Assembly (NCBI GenBank): GCA_026706485.1
Contig: JAPOYR010000002.1
Location: forward strand, 62,001-126,000
DNA length: 64,000 nucleotides
Direction of reading: 5' to 3'
Source of the DNA: Chloroflexota bacterium
GTDB lineage: Bacteria; Chloroflexota; UBA11872
Shown piece after piece: positions 1,027 through 34,229 of the stretch. The stretch's first letter is position 1, and each line of letters opens with the position of its first letter. A program made the translations under genes and the position numbers. The notes beneath the pieces are model-generated. The model was not told the DNA's origin. It saw nothing but the letters and a program-made list of their open reading frames with translations, and made no database searches.

Positions 1027-1317
1027 ATGACTGACCTTGACATGGTTCGGGCCACAGAGCCGGAATCCTCACGCGACCTTCGGCGTGCCATTTCGCCTGA
1101 CCGGGATCGACTTACCGTTGCCCCTCGCGAGGCGGCAACGATGCTCGGTGTGGACGTCAGCTTTGTCTACACTTGGGTTCGGACCGGCGAGTTGCCCCAC
1201 TTCATGGCCGGTCGGGCGATCAAGATCCCAATCGAGGGACTTCGGGAGTTCATCCGGCAGAAGTCCGGTCAAACCAGCCGCCGATCTTTAGCCTCCAGAG
1301 TCAACGAAACGACCTGA
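1027..1317 (+). CDS. Excisionase-family HTH protein (Xis-like)
   Basis: A 96-residue protein with an N-terminal acidic/basic tail and, from about residue 33, an HTH_17 domain: LTVAPREAATMLGVDVSFVY is the helix-turn-helix, followed by the wing FMAGRAIKIPIEGL and a terminal helix. Excisionases of this family bind bent sites beside att cores and set the direction of integrase action. Its stop codon is one base before the integrase ATG, so the two are very likely co-translated. A later in-frame ATG at 1042 is an alternative start. Confidence 0.75.
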   Translation: MTDLDMVRATEPESSRDLRRAISPDRDRLTVAPREAATMLGVDVSFVYTWVRTGELPHFMAGRAIKIPIEGLREFIRQKSGQTSRRSLASRVNETT

Positions 1318-1318
1318 A

Positions 1319-2626
1319 ATGCCGACCTTTCGCCGACGCGGCGACCACTGGGAGTGCCGCATCTTCAGCCCGCAACTCAACCGACAGGTGTCGCGCAGCG
1401 CACGCAGCAAGCGCGCCGCGCGCCAGTTGGCCGAAGCTCAGCTTCGCGATCTGGAGACCGGCGCGACCGCTCCAACAGATCCCACCACGGTTGCCGAGTT
1501 CCTCGATCTATGGCTTGACCAGCACGGCACCAATATCTGGACGAACACACGCACCCGCTATGGCTATCTTGCCCGTCTGCACGTCAAGCCTTACCTCGGT
1601 GGGACACGTTTGTCGAAACTTCAGCCGCTAGATCTGGTCCAGCTCTATTCGACGCTCCTGACTAAGGGGAGACGTGACGGGAAACCCGGCGGACTCCATC
1701 CGCGCCATGTGGGACACGTACACCGCATGTTGCACAAGGCGCTGGGGGATGCCGAGGCCTGGGGCCTTGTCGCACGCAACGTTGCTGACGCCGTGAGTCC
1801 GCCGAAGGTCCCGCGGACCCCGGTGCGGCCGCCGAGCCAAGCCGAAGCCCGCGCGGTGCTAGCCCTGGCCAAGGACGCTGGCATCTACGCGGAGATCGCG
1901 ACGGCTGTGGCGACCGGCATGCGGCCAGGCGAACTACTCGCCTTGCGCTGGCGGGACGTCGATCTCGACGCCGGAGTCGCCTGGGTGCGTCAAGCAGTCC
2001 AGCGCGTTCCCGGTACGGGGCTCGTCTTCAAGGACACGAAAACACACCGGAGCACGCGGCCGGTTGCGCTGCCGCCGTTTCTGGCCGCGGTTCTCCGAGA
2101 ACATAGAGCGGCGATCCGGCAGCGCCGCCGGACGGCCGGCCCGGCCTGGCAGGACGAGGACCTCGTCTTTCCCACTGCCCAGGGCACTGTGCGGTGTCCC
2201 CGCAACTTCCGACGGGCATTTCAGGCAATGTTGAAGAAGGGCGGACTGGCCCCCAGGCGCCTTTACGAATTGCGGCACTGGTTTGCCAGCTTGCTCCTCA
2301 ACGCCGGTGCGCCGATCAGCGTAGTCAGCGAAGCCATGGGCCATGCGGGGATTCAGGTGACGAAGGATGTCTACGGCCACATCTCGCTGGGTGCCCAGCG
2401 TCGGGCTGTCGCCCGACTCGCCCCGCTGTTTCCCGACGCGCCCGGACAGCCGTCTCCGGCGGAATATCGCAACCGTACTCAAATTGTTACTAGAGCAAAA
2501 CTAGAGCAAGGCCGATTTGGCGAGCCGCGGCTCGATCACTGGATGGTCGCGCAACAGGTTTGGGAGCGTGGCACGCCCGGAGGGATTCGAACCCCCGACC
2601 CCTGGTTCCGAAGACCAGTGCTCTAA
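1319..2626 (+). CDS. Tyrosine-type site-specific integrase
   Basis: A 435-residue phage-type integrase that cuts and rejoins DNA at att sites. The N-terminus (about 1-60) looks like an arm-binding domain (FRRRGDHWECRIF), residues about 60-160 are the SAM-like core-binding domain, and about 175-365 the catalytic domain. Catalytic Arg sits in TGMRPGELLALRW (about 202), the second box is YELRHWFAS (about 317, Tyr where His is usual), then VSEAMGHAG and the nucleophile Tyr in VYGHIS (about 351). The tail after residue 365 is unusual: its last residues, GGIRTPDPWFRRPVL, are encoded by the antisense strand of the host tRNA-Arg, and the stop lies inside that tRNA. Upstream excisionase is coupled. 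Confidence 0.92.
   Translation: MPTFRRRGDHWECRIFSPQLNRQVSRSARSKRAARQLAEAQLRDLETGATAPTDPTTVAEFLDLWLDQHGTNIWTNTRTRYGYLARLHVKPYLGGTRLSKLQPLDLVQLYSTLLTKGRRDGKPGGLHPRHVGHVHRMLHKALGDAEAWGLVARNVADAVSPPKVPRTPVRPPSQAEARAVLALAKDAGIYAEIATAVATGMRPGELLALRWRDVDLDAGVAWVRQAVQRVPGTGLVFKDTKTHRSTRPVALPPFLAAVLREHRAAIRQRRRTAGPAWQDEDLVFPTAQGTVRCPRNFRRAFQAMLKKGGLAPRRLYELRHWFASLLLNAGAPISVVSEAMGHAGIQVTKDVYGHISLGAQRRAVARLAPLFPDAPGQPSPAEYRNRTQIVTRAKLEQGRFGEPRLDHWMVAQQVWERGTPGGIRTPDPWFRRPVL
2489..2509 (+). repeat. Tandem 10-bp direct repeats, candidate integrase arm sites
   Basis: ACTAGAGCAA occurs twice with an 11-base period, inside the 3' end of the integrase gene and about 60 bases from the tRNA 3' end. Helically phased short direct repeats close to the crossover core are typical of arm-type binding sites of tyrosine integrases. 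This role is inferred. Confidence 0.5.
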
Positions 2627-2645
2627 TCCGCTGAGCTACGGGCGC
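2572..2645 (-). tRNA. tRNA-Arg (anticodon TCG)
   Basis: A complete 74-nt cloverleaf on the minus strand: acceptor GCGCCCG/CGGGCGT, D stem GCTC/GAGC, anticodon stem CTGGT/ACCAG with loop CTTCGGA (anticodon TCG, reads CGA), and T arm with loop TTCGAAT. Discriminator G; no CCA encoded. The 3' half overlaps the 3' end of the integrase gene and is the likely attB core of the element on its left. Confidence 0.95.
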
Positions 2646-28218: not shown

Positions 28219-29091
28219 ATGGACAAGCTGGCGTTCGTCGATACGCACGTTCATTTCTACGACCTGCAGCATCCCGAGCTGGTGTACGAGCACTGGAAGC
28301 CGGGGGTTCCGCACCCGACGATGGGATGGAGGCTGCAGAAGCTGGCCGAGCGGAGTTACCTGGCCGAGGACTATATCGCCGAGACGCGGAACGCGAACGT
28401 GACGAAGTCGGTGCACGTGCAGGCGGCCATCGGCAGCCCGGATCCGGTGACCGAGACGGAGTGGCTGCAGGAGGCGGCGGACCGGACCGGGTTTCCGCAC
28501 GGGATCGTCGCCTATGCGGACTTAAGGGACCCGGGCGTGCGGGCGGTGCTGGAGCGTCACGCCGAGTCGCCCAACATGCGGGGAATCCGCGACTTCTCCT
28601 ACGGGGACTACCTGGTGGAGCCGGACTTCCACCGGGGATTCGCGCTGCTGGAGACGTTCAACCTGGTGTCGAGCCTGTCGGTGCAATGGCAGGACATGGA
28701 GAAGGTGCGGGATCTGGCGCACATGTTTCCGAACATCACGATCGTGGTGGATCACACGGGATGGCCGACGGAGCGGACGGATGAGTATTTCGCGAAGTGG
28801 ACGCGCGGGGTGGCCGCCGCGGCCAGCTGCGACAACATCCGCTGGAAGATCTCGGGCCTGGGCATGGGCGACAACGACTGGACGGTCGACAGCATCCGGC
28901 CGTACGTGCTGACGTCGATCGAGACATTTGGCGTCGAGCGCTGTTTCTTTGGCACCAACTGGCCGGTGGACTGGCTGTGGAGTGCGTACGACGAGTTGAT
29001 CGACGCCTACACGGAGATCATCGCGGATTTCAGCCGGGACGAGCAGGCCCGGCTCTTCTCCGGGACGGCTGAGGAGATTTACCGCATCTGA
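28219..29091 (+). CDS. Amidohydrolase-family metal-dependent hydrolase
   Basis: 290 residues of the amidohydrolase_2 (PF04909-type) TIM-barrel family. FVDTHVHFYDLQHPEL carries the first metal His pair, IVVDHTGWPTERTDEYF the third His, and FFGTNWPVDWLWSAYDELI the region where the metal Asp normally stands; here it reads GTNWPVD, a frequent variant of GSDWP. Such enzymes open lactones or decarboxylate aromatics. AGGAGG-type site precedes the ATG. It ends 22 bases from the convergent sterol-reductase-like gene. Confidence 0.88.
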   Translation: MDKLAFVDTHVHFYDLQHPELVYEHWKPGVPHPTMGWRLQKLAERSYLAEDYIAETRNANVTKSVHVQAAIGSPDPVTETEWLQEAADRTGFPHGIVAYADLRDPGVRAVLERHAESPNMRGIRDFSYGDYLVEPDFHRGFALLETFNLVSSLSVQWQDMEKVRDLAHMFPNITIVVDHTGWPTERTDEYFAKWTRGVAAAASCDNIRWKISGLGMGDNDWTVDSIRPYVLTSIETFGVERCFFGTNWPVDWLWSAYDELIDAYTEIIADFSRDEQARLFSGTAEEIYRI

Positions 29092-29113: not shown

Positions 29114-30253
29114 TCAGTAGACCCAGGGACAGATCCGGTACTTGACTCGCGCCTTGTATTCCGCCCACTTCTCCTCACCGTACTTCTCGACGCAGTGCTC
29201 CTCGTCGTCCCGTTGACGCCAGGTGAAGAGGGAGACGATGAAGATCAAGTACGTCCAGGCCCAGAGATTCGTGAAGTGACCAAACGATAGGGCGATGCCA
29301 AGGCAGATGATGCCCTCGCCCATGTAGTTGAAGTGGCGGGCCGCGCCCCAGAATCCGCTGCAGAGGATTTTTCGATCGCCGGCCTGGATGTATTGGGGCT
29401 CGATAATTCCCAGGAACTTCCGGTCGGGCCAGCGCTTGAAGGTGTACTTCTGCCAGTTGCCGCCGCGCGTGATGGTCCATCCGAAGAAAAGCAGCACGCC
29501 TAACCCGATCAGCCACACGTACGTCCATGGCTCCGAGAACCCGGGGTGCGGATAGGCGGCCATGCCCCAAAGCGGGAGGATGTAGAGCCAGCCGTAGATG
29601 ACAAGCCCGCCCCAAATCAGCTTGAACCCCAGCTTCTCATGAATCAGGTCGTAGGTGTAGAGCTGAACGCGCTCGAAAAAAAAGTAGTCCATGATGTAGA
29701 GCCCAAAAAATCCAGCATACAGAAACACGCCGGGATTGACGTTATCTCCGAATTGCTGGACGTGCCAGGCGGCGCCCGACAGGGCGTTTAGCGTCAGCAT
29801 CGTCCCGCCGACAACGTACAGGTACATCTTGAGATCGAATCGTTCGTTGAAGAGCGGGTGCTCCAAGGATCGCCCGGTCCAGAACGCGTGAAACGGATTC
29901 TTGATCTCGCCTTGCGGCTGGCTCAGCATGGCTACGAGTGCGATAAGCGCCGCGAAGACGGTTCCTCCAGCCACGGCGTAGATCGCGGACCGGTAGAACC
30001 AGTCACGCGGCATTCCGGTGACTTCGGTCGCCCACACGGCGATCGCGATGGCGAATACCAGGAGGCCGTTGAGCCGATAGTTGCGAGGTTCGCCGGTTTC
30101 GGGATTGATGACATAGCCGGGAACCCGCCGCGCCGGCAGGACGATCTGCGCCACGAAGAACACGGCGAAGACAATCAGCGGGGTGAAGAATCCCCACAGG
30201 GCTTCCGCCCCGGAAAGCTCGACTAGATGCTCGATACCAAGCCATTCAATCAT
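29114..30253 (-). CDS. ERG4/ERG24-type sterol-reductase-like membrane enzyme, copy A
   Basis: 379 residues, about nine to ten membrane helices. The family C-terminus is clear: KILCSGFWGAARHFNYMGE, WQKYTFKRWPDRKFLG before it, and the end EKYGEEKWAEYKARVKYRIC-PWVY. This matches the eukaryotic C14/C24 sterol reductases and DHCR7 (C-x-x-KYG-W-Y-V-YRI-P-Y), which reduce ring or side-chain double bonds with NADPH. NYRLNGLLVF near residue 60 fits the family's N-terminal YxxNG box. Its natural substrate in bacteria is unknown; isoprenoid or sterol-like lipids are plausible. Next to a second paralogue of identical length. Confidence 0.78.
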   Translation of the reverse strand: MIEWLGIEHLVELSGAEALWGFFTPLIVFAVFFVAQIVLPARRVPGYVINPETGEPRNYRLNGLLVFAIAIAVWATEVTGMPRDWFYRSAIYAVAGGTVFAALIALVAMLSQPQGEIKNPFHAFWTGRSLEHPLFNERFDLKMYLYVVGGTMLTLNALSGAAWHVQQFGDNVNPGVFLYAGFFGLYIMDYFFFERVQLYTYDLIHEKLGFKLIWGGLVIYGWLYILPLWGMAAYPHPGFSEPWTYVWLIGLGVLLFFGWTITRGGNWQKYTFKRWPDRKFLGIIEPQYIQAGDRKILCSGFWGAARHFNYMGEGIICLGIALSFGHFTNLWAWTYLIFIVSLFTWRQRDDEEHCVEKYGEEKWAEYKARVKYRICPWVY

Positions 30254-30388
30254 GGGCGAATATCCCGGCTTCTAAACATGCGGCGATTATGGGCACCGTC
30301 CAGGTGGCGGTCAATCAGGCGCCGGGAGGTGAAACATGACCGAATCCACGCGCGTGGAGTGGGTCGACGGCGACTGCCGCCCGATATT

Positions 30389-31528
30389 TCAGTAGAGCCA
30401 GGGACAGATGCGGTACTTCACGCGGGCCTGGTACTCGGCCCACTTCTCCGGCCCATACTTCTCCGCGCAGTAGTGATCGTCCTCGCGCTGGCGCAGAATG
30501 AATAGAGCGACGATCCAGATGAAGTAGGTCCAGGCCCACAGATTGGTGAAGTGACCAAACGCCAGTGCGATCGCCGCCGAATGGAACCATTCGCCCAGGT
30601 AGTTCATGTGGCGGGCCCTTCCCCAAAAGCCGCTCACCAGGATCTTGCGGTCGCCGGCCTGGATGTACTCGGGTTCGATGAGTCCCAGGAACTTGCGTTC
30701 GGGCCAGCGCTTGAACGTGTATTTCTGCATGTTCGCGCCACGGCAGATGGCCCATCCGGCCAGGTACAACAAGGCCGTGCCGATGAGCCAGCCATAGGTT
30801 GCTTCCGTTGAAAACCCTGGCGTCGGCTGCGCGGCCATGCCCCACCACGGGAGGATGTAGAGCCAGCCGTAGATCATCAGACCACCCCAGAACATCTTGA
30901 AGCCGAGCTTTTCGTAAATCACATCGAAGGTGTAGAGCTGGACACGCTCAAAGATAAAGTAGTCCACCACGTAGAAGGTATAGAACGCCGCGCACAGGAA
31001 CACGCCTGGATTGGCGACTTCCCCAAAGCGCTCGACGTTCCACGCGGCCCCGGAAAGAGCGTTGAGTGAAAACATGGTTCCGCCGACGACGTAGAGGTAC
31101 ATCTTGAGATCAATGCGTTCTCTCAGAAACGACAGCTCCTGGATTCGCCCAAGCCAGAAGGCCGCAATCGGGTTCCTGGTTTCGTCTCGAGGCTGGGTAA
31201 ACACCGCGATCAGCGTGAACACCGTGACGGTAATTGTCCCGCCGGCGAACGCAGGGATGGCCGACCGATAGAACCAATCACGCGGCATTCCGGTGACTTC
31301 GGTCGCCCACACGATCACCGCGAGTGCAAACACCAAGAGCCCGTTGAGCCGATATGTTCGAGGCTCCCCGGTCTGGGGATTGATGACGTAACCGGGCACG
31401 CGAAGACCCGGCATGACGAGCTGCACGACGAAGAATATGGCGAAGATAATCAGCGGCGTGAAGAAGCCGAGGATCGCTTCCGGCGGGGAAAGCTCGAACA
31501 GGTGTTCGATACCGAGCCACTCGATCAT
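30389..31528 (-). CDS. ERG4/ERG24-type sterol-reductase-like membrane enzyme, copy B
   Basis: 379 residues, the same length as copy A and alignable end to end, starting MIEWLGIEHL in both. Shared blocks include RVPGYVINPQTGEPRTYRLN, VWATEVTGMPRDWFYRSAI, FDVIYEKLGFKMFWGGLMIY and ILVSGFWGRARHMNYLGEW; the end is VKYRICPWLY. Differences concentrate in the loop around 120-160. Clearly a tandem gene duplication that has diverged, with a 135-base spacer. This copy is upstream on the shared strand. Different substrate or positional specificity would explain keeping both, but that is inference. Confidence 0.78.
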   Translation of the reverse strand: MIEWLGIEHLFELSPPEAILGFFTPLIIFAIFFVVQLVMPGLRVPGYVINPQTGEPRTYRLNGLLVFALAVIVWATEVTGMPRDWFYRSAIPAFAGGTITVTVFTLIAVFTQPRDETRNPIAAFWLGRIQELSFLRERIDLKMYLYVVGGTMFSLNALSGAAWNVERFGEVANPGVFLCAAFYTFYVVDYFIFERVQLYTFDVIYEKLGFKMFWGGLMIYGWLYILPWWGMAAQPTPGFSTEATYGWLIGTALLYLAGWAICRGANMQKYTFKRWPERKFLGLIEPEYIQAGDRKILVSGFWGRARHMNYLGEWFHSAAIALAFGHFTNLWAWTYFIWIVALFILRQREDDHYCAEKYGPEKWAEYQARVKYRICPWLY

Positions 31529-32207: not shown

Positions 32208-33398
32208 CTAGGCGCCGTCTGCGGCGCGCCGCAGCACCAGGCAGGTGATGTCGTCGGATTGGGGCGTATCGCCGACGAATTCCCGCACCGCCTCGAACAG
32301 CGCATGGGTGGCCTGCTCGGAATCGGTGGGCGGATTCGCCTCGAAGACCTCCTGAATACGGTCGACGCCAAACTGTTCACCGTCGCCGTTCATGGCTTCG
32401 GTGACGCCGTCCGTGTAGAGCACGATGGTGTCGCCGGGATCGAGCTGAACGGTCTGGCTTGGGAAGTCGATGTCGGGCGCCACGCCAAGCGCGACCCCGC
32501 CGGTCAGCGACAGGAGTTCCGCGCCCCCTCCAGCGCGAACCAGAACCGGCGCGTCGTGCCCGCCGTTGGAATAGGTGAGCGTGCCGGTCGCCGGGTCGAA
32601 GATCGAGTACAGCACGGTCACGAACATCATGGTTTCGTTTTCTTCGTACAGCAGCTCATTCACTTCGCGCAGGGCCTCGCCCGGCTCGCCGAGGCCGATC
32701 GCCGCGCCTTTGAGCAGAGTCCGGCTCGACATCATGAACAGGGCGGCCGGAACGCCCTTGTCGGAGACATCCGCTATCGCCAGCCCGACCTTGCCGCTTT
32801 CCAAACGAATCACGTCGTAGAAGTCGCCGCCGACGTTTCGCGCCGGCTCCATGTTGGCGAACACCTGGTATTCATCGCTCTTCGGAAACGTCTTGGGCAG
32901 GATCGACTGCTGGGTGCTGCTCGCGACTTCGAGCTCGTTCTGCAGGGCCACCAGCGCGTCGCGCGAGGAGAGCGCGGCTCGCCACTCCTCGAGGTGGTGC
33001 AGCGCCCGCTCCATGGTGATTTGCAGGTCTTCGAAGTCGATCGGCTTGGTGACGAAGTCGAAGGCCCCACGATTCATCGCCGTGCGAATGTTCTGCATAT
33101 CGCCGTAAGCCGAGACCACGATGCATCTGACGTCGATATCGGTGACATTCGGTATCTGGTCGAGCAGCGTAAGCCCGTCCATGCGCGGCATATTGATGTC
33201 CGTGATGACCATGTCGATTTCGGGGTTCGCGTCCAGCTTTTCAAGCGCCTCGATGCCGTCGTTCGCAAAGTCGAAGCTATGCGTGCCGCGGCGAATCCGG
33301 CGCCGCATGCGCTGCTTGATCAGCGGTTCCAGGTCCGGCTCATCATCAACGACGAGAATGTTGTAGGGCCGCTTCATGGCGCTCATATCGAGAGTCAT
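32208..33398 (-). CDS. Response regulator with SpoIIE/RsbU-type PP2C phosphatase
   Basis: 396 residues. Receiver domain at about 12-130: acidic pocket VVDDEPD, phospho-acceptor Asp 67 in MVITDINMPRMDG, Thr/Ser switch VVSAYGD and Lys in FVTKPIDF. A helical linker (HHLEEWRAALSSRDALVALQ) leads to a SpoIIE phosphatase domain (about 190-392) with NVGGDFYDVIRL, LAIADVSDKGVPAALFM, VLYTDGVTEAMN and DDITCLVLRR, which hold the metal-binding Asp residues. Such proteins dephosphorylate anti-sigma-factor antagonists. No STAS or HATPase anti-sigma gene is in the window. Nine bases downstream of a paralogous stand-alone receiver. Confidence 0.93.
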   Translation of the reverse strand: MTLDMSAMKRPYNILVVDDEPDLEPLIKQRMRRRIRRGTHSFDFANDGIEALEKLDANPEIDMVITDINMPRMDGLTLLDQIPNVTDIDVRCIVVSAYGDMQNIRTAMNRGAFDFVTKPIDFEDLQITMERALHHLEEWRAALSSRDALVALQNELEVASSTQQSILPKTFPKSDEYQVFANMEPARNVGGDFYDVIRLESGKVGLAIADVSDKGVPAALFMMSSRTLLKGAAIGLGEPGEALREVNELLYEENETMMFVTVLYSIFDPATGTLTYSNGGHDAPVLVRAGGGAELLSLTGGVALGVAPDIDFPSQTVQLDPGDTIVLYTDGVTEAMNGDGEQFGVDRIQEVFEANPPTDSEQATHALFEAVREFVGDTPQSDDITCLVLRRAADGA

Positions 33399-33407
33399 AT
33401 CACCATC

Positions 33408-33890
33408 TCAGTTCGCCGCTCCAGGGTCTGAAGCCGGCTGAGGATCGGTCTGGCCTTGGGCCGTTACCAGCGCGTCGCGCGACGACAGGGCCATCCGCCA
33501 GGCGTCGAGATGGTGCCGCGTGCGCTCGATGGTCTCTTGCAGGTCGTCGAAATCGATCGGCTTCATGATGAAATCGAACGCGCCTCGCCGCATCGCCGTG
33601 CGGATATTCTTCATGTCGCCGTACGCCGACAGGATCACGGCGCGGACTGAGGGATCGACTCGTGGAATCTGCTCCAGCAGCGTCAGGCCGTCCATGTGTG
33701 GCATGTTGATATCGGAGATGACGATGTCGATGTCCTGGTCGTCTTGCAGCATGTCAAGCGCCTCGACGCCGTTGCTGGCGAAGACGAATCGGTATTCGCC
33801 GGCCTGAATCTTGCGCCGCATGCGCTGCCGCACCAGCGGCTCGAGATCGGGCTCGTCATCGACCATGAGGATCTTGTAGGGTCGTCCCAT
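33408..33890 (-). CDS. Stand-alone receiver-domain response regulator
   Basis: 160 residues starting MGRPYKILMVDDEPDLEPLV; phospho-acceptor Asp 60 in IVISDINMPHMDG, Lys in FIMKPIDFDDL. It is strongly similar to the receiver of the next gene, including the linker HHLDAWRMALSSRDALV, but ends in an Ala/Gln-rich tail instead of the phosphatase. This looks like a tandem duplication in which one copy lost, or never had, the output domain. It could compete for the same kinase or act as a phosphate sink. Start at MGRPYK, since upstream codons show no family match. Confidence 0.9.
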   Translation of the reverse strand: MGRPYKILMVDDEPDLEPLVRQRMRRKIQAGEYRFVFASNGVEALDMLQDDQDIDIVISDINMPHMDGLTLLEQIPRVDPSVRAVILSAYGDMKNIRTAMRRGAFDFIMKPIDFDDLQETIERTRHHLDAWRMALSSRDALVTAQGQTDPQPASDPGAAN

Positions 33891-34229
33891 CGTCGGCCCT
33901 CCTGCTTCGCCGTCCCTGCGGTTCGCTGAACTCCAACAGCCGCCCCGCACTCAGAAGCAGGCGAATCCACGCACTCTCGCCCAGAAGCGTCGTCACTGTA
34001 GCGAATTCGGCAGGTCCATTGGCCACCTCTGGCCCCCGTGACCCAGTCGATGTCGACGAACGCCTCTCACGCCGTGCATCCCGCGATCCCGTGCGGCCGG
34101 TCCCGGATTACCGTCATGGGTCACCCCCGCCCTTTGGACAGTCGCCACGATAAGCTGCGAATCTGCATCAATTGCGACCGCGAGACTTTCCGGCACGCTC
34201 GGAATCGGCCCCGAATCAAGGAACGCAAC
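33891..34229. other. Divergent intergenic region, no gene seen
   Basis: 339 bases between the divergent response-regulator operon and the solute-binding-protein gene. It must hold promoters for both. I see no convincing -35/-10 pair and no repeat. A frame runs in from the right (to 34038) but its sequence is not signal-peptide-like and it lacks a ribosome-binding site. Confidence 0.4.

Follow-up and report, generated by a model that had tools for sequence, protein, structure and literature searches.

Tandem sterol reductase-like genes and a sterol methyltransferase suggest remodeling of sponge-host sterols by a Chloroflexota bacterium

Introduction

The makers of the side-chain-alkylated sterols of demosponges are disputed, and hence also the use of 24-isopropylcholestane as a fossil marker of early animals. 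The sterol C-24 methyltransferases (SMTs) of symbionts can build the carbon skeleton, but a double bond remains in the side chain of what they make. In the stretch of 64,000 nucleotides analyzed here (the window), a Chloroflexota bacterium carries two adjacent genes for membrane enzymes of the ERG4/ERG24 type, which raises the question of what these enzymes might reduce, and of whose sterols.

Two intact and maintained members of the ERG4/ERG24 family

The locus comprises the following genes:
28219..29091, plus strand: Amidohydro_2 protein of 290 residues (PF04909, E 9.6e-34), used for synteny
29114..30253, minus strand: reductase A, 379 residues, PF01222 (ERG4/ERG24-like), second gene of the tandem (from ORF and profile)
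30389..31528, minus strand: reductase B, 379 residues, PF01222 (ERG4/ERG24-like), first gene of the tandem (from ORF and profile)

Both reductase ORFs are complete, lie head to tail and share 71% identity over their full length, in agreement with an earlier note on this DNA, which had described two 379-residue ERG4/ERG24-like paralogues. Profile searches assigned them to PF01222: A scored 134.9 bits and B 125.6 bits (E 4.5e-39 and 2.9e-36, respectively), against a gathering score of 27 bits. Isoprenylcysteine methyltransferase (ICMT) and DUF1295 had been named in the note as competing placements. The pair scored only 29.4 and 17.7 bits against DUF1295, far below PF01222, and 13.4 bits against the NCBIfam model of ICMT, which has a cut-off of 160, and the model of A has a TM-score of 0.27 to ICMT; both identities were thus rejected, and the placement inside PF01222 stands. 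The best solved structure by sequence, and the sole strong one, is the Delta14-sterol reductase MaSR1 (PDB 4quv, E 4e-30), followed by 9l5r, another Delta14-sterol reductase.

Comparison with orthologues in related genomes gave dN/dS values of 0.08-0.09 for A and 0.06-0.12 for B. Both copies, whose retention had already been remarked upon, are maintained by strong purifying selection and are therefore neither chance ORFs nor decaying pseudogenes; it is possible that they catalyze two different reactions. The amidohydrolase gene stays beside reductase A in the own genus and in the sister genus g2, and we treat it as a neighbor only, with no role claimed in the pathway proposed below.

Two adjacent response-regulator genes elsewhere in the window (32208-33950) have receiver domains that are ~75% identical in DNA, the mark of a local tandem duplication. 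In addition, the genome holds a third, weak match to PF01222 on another contig (G000:C12:15290-15511; L066:7072-7545), which scores 18.8 bits over the C-terminal part only of a 157-residue ORF and is probably a related small methyltransferase-like membrane protein.

Fold and active-site residues

The AlphaFold model of reductase A (pLDDT 85.3, pTM 0.86) displays the multi-helix membrane fold of MaSR1, with a TM-score of 0.80-0.81 against 4quv, and the next structural matches, ICMT and the steroid 5-alpha-reductase SRD5A, are far weaker. We mapped the residues of A and B onto MaSR1, with functional roles taken from previous reports (PMC12489058, PMC4951196). The proposed catalytic residue Tyr241 of MaSR1 corresponds to Y186 in both A and B, whereas K319, N359, R395, D399 and Y407 correspond to K269, N309, R346, D350 and Y358. 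The counterparts of most of these residues have been named as cofactor residues, and mutant data in LBR are available for those of N359 and R395 (PMC12489058, PMC4951196).

The position of MaSR1 D271, the Asp of the WGD motif, is occupied by Gly in 86 of the 97 members of the clade described below. The yeast counterpart of Asp271 was placed near the sterol 3-OH by docking only, and loss of this Asp would be compatible with a different orientation of the sterol in the site. The "full signature of eukaryotic reductases" claimed in the earlier note is thus correct as to family but overstated, for the pair belongs to a divergent bacterial clade that is ~30% identical to MaSR1 and usually lacks this Asp. 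At the position of MaSR1 D363, the pair has E313 and all 97 clade members have Glu; we rejected this exchange as a hallmark of the clade, since the operon-type ERG24s of the same phylum have Glu too.

Among the tandem pairs of Acidimicrobiia, the upstream copy has Gly at N309, the Asn of the NADPH phosphate, in 11 of 11 cases (e.g., L039:6819-7961, L040:1947-3083 and L041:6828-7961), whereas the partner copy keeps Asn. The mutation N547D at the equivalent site of LBR cripples NADPH binding (PMC4951196).

A separate clade in sponge-associated bacteria

A scan of one genome per species yielded 60 loci with relatives of the pair; judged by isolate names, nearly all of them come from sponge metagenomes. 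Bins named jk18x are MAGs from Ircinia (PMC9531527), and the prefixes COS, RHO, IRC and APA fit, as matched by name, the sponge hosts of PMC8163846. Members of the clade are found in Chloroflexota, Acidimicrobiia, Gemmatimonadota, and Alpha- and Gammaproteobacteria, often as a tandem.

A PF01222 search of 400 Chloroflexota genomes placed the clade at ~90-140 bits, separate from enzymes with 230-435 bits; one high-scoring group (family f72) sits in a known ERG24-CYP51-OSC operon (L099). In a tree whose groups are joined by long branches and which holds no eukaryotic references, all 97 clade members fall together (SH-aLRT 100), and the pair does not group with the known or operon-linked Delta14 reductases. 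Two long enzymes (L068 and L069), which we take to resemble ERG4 by their motifs, fall outside the clade and with MaSR1, in a tree with long branches and no verified ERG4 sequence. By profile and phylogeny, we assign A and B to a distinct bacterial clade of PF01222, and not to the Delta14 reductases of the ERG24-CYP51-LSS operon.

Tandem pairs occur in several families of Chloroflexota and in Acidimicrobiia, where the copies form a subclade of their own, which indicates that pairs arose at least twice. Doublets of TM7SF2/ERG24 genes have already been reported in Ircinia symbionts (PMC9531527). Acidimicrobial ORFs of 596-694 residues were considered as fusions and rejected, as they reflect upstream read-through of the open frame. 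One Chloroflexota genome (G218) combines a full ERG24-CYP51-OSC operon (L099, G218:C4) with a separate copy of the clade (L100).

No detectable route of de novo sterol synthesis

The own genome of the pair is a MAG of 97.9% completeness. Searches of this genome with PF08491 for squalene epoxidase and with PF00067 for cytochrome P450 gave no match, and with no P450 there is no CYP51 to make a Delta14 substrate. The sole cyclase found has the hopene-cyclase motif DVDD, not DCTAE, and is adjoined by hopanoid-type genes; the genome check for squalene epoxidase and oxidosqualene cyclase (OSC) that the earlier note called for thus found neither. No sterol-synthesis genes were noticed near the pair, and neither an OSC nor a P450, as in CYP51/OSC linkage, adjoins any of the 60 relatives. 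Among 43 carriers of the clade, 6 have cyclase scores in the OSC range, as read from a score gap with no match reaching the family cut-off, and 13 have no cyclase match of either kind. Judged by these searches, the own genome appears to lack de novo sterol synthesis in the form of squalene epoxidase, OSC and CYP51. The previous statement that the window contains no sterol synthesis genes holds for the window itself; the genome as a whole does encode an SMT, on another contig.

An SMT partner and the proposed reaction

The SMT gene of the own genome is as follows:
Contig C13 (G000:C13): SMT, 339 residues (PF08498 Sterol_MT_C 90.9 bits, PF08241 60.9 bits)

SMT and reductases lie on different contigs here, and in genus g2 an SMT is found within ~6 kb of the reductase pair. 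In the Chloroflexota sample (n=400), with 25 clade carriers counted from the PF01222 match table and 375 others, 23 of the 25 carriers but only 1 of the 375 non-carriers encode an SMT (Fisher p 5e-34, a value that ignores shared ancestry and habitat, by which the co-occurrence is inflated). Carriers of other families and phyla have an SMT in 32 of 35 cases. An SMT is missing from two or three carriers whose genomes are otherwise good (G069, G109; G438, G441), G093 has an SMT without a clade reductase, and several related genomes lack both (G010 and G273 of family f1, and G213 of f3).

In G109, which has no SMT, the only reductase match (L086, G109:C9:929392-930489) contains an in-frame TAA, a pattern consistent with decay after loss of the SMT. 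In another genome (G033, L098:9553-13185), a long PF01222 enzyme of 421 bits, presumably ERG4-like, is collinear with a distant Rieske oxygenase and with an SMT of the same type as that of the own genome, a predicted second and different sterol-tailoring cluster.

It has been reported that SMTs of sponge symbionts act on desmosterol and 24-methylenecholesterol to give products with a side-chain double bond retained, be it a 24-methylene, 24-ethylidene or Delta25 bond (PMC10070321). We propose, with a confidence only slightly better than even, that A and B are NADPH-dependent integral-membrane sterol reductases that act on sterols of the sponge host or its diet, not made by the bacterium itself, and that they reduce the side chain of the SMT product. 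In this scheme, sterol from the host or from the host's diet would enter the bacterial membrane, where the bacterium's own SMT would alkylate C-24 and leave a 24-methylene, 24-ethylidene or Delta25 double bond in the side chain. One or both reductases would then saturate this bond, with hydride from NADPH and protonation by the conserved Tyr. The scheme is analogous to yeast, where ERG4 acts after ERG6 and reduces the bond left by it. The two copies may serve two bonds or two alkylation states.

This reading is supported by the family, fold and residues of the pair, the purifying selection, the separate clade, the missing de novo genes, the presence and association of the SMT, and the distribution in sponges; from these we infer the substrate, the bond reduced, the division of labor and the uptake. 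The suggestion of environmental or host sterols as substrates gains support from the profile, fold, residues and near-exclusive distribution in sponge MAGs, whereas "isoprenoid or sterol-like lipids" was too vague, as the SMT and its near-perfect co-occurrence point to tailoring of imported sterols. Altogether, the closest relatives in marine sponges, the SMT and the absence of detectable sterol making suggest that the bacterium remodels sterols of its sponge host.

A Rieske/P450 module at a tRNA-Arg site

A search meant to test steroid catabolism brought to light a KshA-type Rieske oxygenase, with KshA as its nearest solved structure, in 22 of 24 carriers; in the Chloroflexota sample it occurs in 23 of the 25 carriers and 7 of the 375 others. 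Most of the carrier Rieskes form one clade, with ~56-73% mutual identity across phyla; those of Gammaproteobacteria are more distant, and so are the reductases of this class. The Rieske gene is embedded in a conserved cluster that also encodes an additional SMT, an RND/MMPL transporter carrying a sterol-sensing domain, a fusion of GPP34 with P450 and a protein resembling flavin amine oxidases. In genus g2 (e.g., L007-L013, L116-L118 and L124), this module directly precedes reductases B and A, followed by the amidohydrolase. A KshA-like Rieske was not found in the own genome, where PF19298 and TIGR03213 both had no match.

At most module loci, in sponge symbionts across phyla, the cytochrome P450 carries a fused GPP34 (Golgi phosphoprotein 3) domain (L117:5208-7148, L141:3114-5141); this is an unusual domain pairing, and a search of the open-access literature found no mention of such a link. 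The RND/MMPL transporter matches the sterol-sensing/Patched domain (L115:8275-10767, L117:1434-3911) and is a candidate sterol transporter by its domain content.

The synteny between the window and a sister genome has its boundary at a tRNA gene:
1319..2626, plus strand: phage-type tyrosine integrase abutting the tRNA-Arg gene (PF00589, E 9.8e-21; context only)
2569..2645, minus strand: tRNA-Arg(TCG) (ARAGORN), boundary of synteny

An HTH_17 ORF accompanies the integrase at this site (window 1027-2645). In the sister genome G042 (L115:15588-17172), the Rieske/SMT/P450 module sits beside the tRNA-Arg gene, accompanied by a second, 45-bp copy of the tRNA end; the module is located on the other side of the tRNA, at which synteny with the own genome begins. 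The tRNA-Arg(TCG) gene is a variable integration site, and the integrase in one genome and the module in the other place the module in a variable, possibly mobile region. It is conceivable, though we would sooner doubt it, that A and B are part of a horizontally shared pathway of host-sterol remodeling, in which an SMT and the clade, mostly with the Rieske, GPP34-P450, flavin oxidase and RND transporter, would alkylate and saturate sponge sterols in non-synthesizing bacteria.

Alternative roles of the pair

The module also gives rise to the main rival explanation, namely that the pair reduces host sterols at a double bond of the ring system (e.g., Delta5, Delta7 or Delta14) alongside the KshA/Neverland-like Rieske, GPP34-P450 and flavin oxidase, so that an oxidized or rearranged steroid, such as a signal or defense compound, would result. 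The frequency of a single-clade Rieske among the carriers, the direct linkage of the pair to the Rieske/P450 module in genus g2, and the fact that the nearest solved relatives are characterized ring reductases (MaSR1 and ERG24) all argue for such a role. However, both reductases remain under selection in the own genome, which also has the SMT but neither Rieske nor P450, although one missing island or a gap in the MAG could explain both absences. Moreover, ring reductases have an Asp that was placed near the sterol 3-OH by docking only, and most of the clade has Gly in its stead. We therefore consider ring reduction unlikely, and side-chain reduction remains our preferred reading.

It is quite improbable that one of the bacterium's own non-sterol isoprenoids, for example a hopanoid, a carotenoid or a quinone side chain, serves as the substrate. 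The hopene cyclase of the own genome, with its hopanoid-type neighbors, would fit this role, but the 13 of 43 carriers with no cyclase match at all, the tie to the SMT as a sterol-specific enzyme and a distribution that follows sponges speak against it. Even less probable is a route of steroid degradation in which the pair readies host sterols as a carbon source. Most carriers do have the KshA-like Rieske alongside, and sponges are known to harbor steroid degraders as well as a KshA cluster restricted to them (PMC5790920); yet matches to the HsaC family of ring-cleavage enzymes are missing or weak in 23 of 24 carriers, among them the own genome, which also has no KshA-like gene, and the SMT adds carbon and so has no place in catabolism. 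Least probable of all is a Delta14 reductase of de novo synthesis, as in the ERG24-CYP51-LSS operon of sponge symbionts: despite the TM7SF2/ERG24 genes in operons and doublets of Ircinia symbionts (PMC9531527) and a Delta14 reductase as the nearest solved relative, the own genome has no squalene epoxidase, P450 or OSC, none of the 60 relatives adjoins an OSC or P450, the operon-linked Chloroflexota enzymes are not part of the clade, and G218 has the operon plus a separate clade copy.

Significance and comparison with known systems

A reductase clade tied to the SMT, mostly in bacteria apparently unable to make sterols, is a candidate for the finishing step of side-chain alkylation, and suggests that symbionts edit host sterols rather than make their own. 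If true, the horizontally shared pathway considered above would provide the reductase step that is missing for 24-alkylated sterols, even the 24-isopropyl ones, which are read as a sponge fossil marker. The PF01222 enzyme family, the symbiont SMTs and the symbiont sterol operons are already known; the separate clade, its tie to the SMT in bacteria where sterol synthesis was not detected, and the tRNA-linked module were not found in the open-access literature searched, which we regard as a lead on novelty.

Several known systems resemble the pair in part. MaSR1 of Methylotuvimicrobium (Methylomicrobium) alcaliphilum (PDB 4QUV) has in common with it the PF01222 family, the fold (TM 0.80), the catalytic Tyr and the NADPH residues, but the pair is only ~30% identical, has a shorter N-terminus, belongs to a clade usually without Asp at D271 and resides in a genome without CYP51. 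The ERG24-CYP51-LSS clusters of Ircinia symbionts (PMC9531527) likewise contain PF01222 reductases in many phyla, with evidence of horizontal transfer and with ERG24 doublets, whereas the pair forms a separate clade with no adjoining CYP51 or OSC, in a genome that has neither. The 8,14-Bsr of Methylococcus capsulatus (PMC13277303) is also a bacterial reductase of sterol double bonds, yet it is a protein of the NTF2 superfamily, unrelated to the pair in sequence and fold.

The Delta24 sterol reductase of Coxiella burnetii and the sterol reductases of Chlamydiae, as cited in PMC9666466, likewise belong to host-associated bacteria that do not make sterols. Those bacteria are intracellular, and no SMT-linked tandem is described for them. 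The SMTs of sponge symbionts and chlamydiae (PMC10070321) are bacterial as well, and the chlamydial one comes from a MAG without other sterol-synthesis genes; a reductase that finishes the side chain is not treated there. In its proposed chemistry, the pair is matched by yeast ERG6 and ERG4, where C-24 methylation is followed by Delta24(28) reduction, and where an SMT and a PF01222 reductase also occur together. It differs from them in having two reductases, in a putative ERG4 role, in a bacterium with no sterol synthesis of its own.
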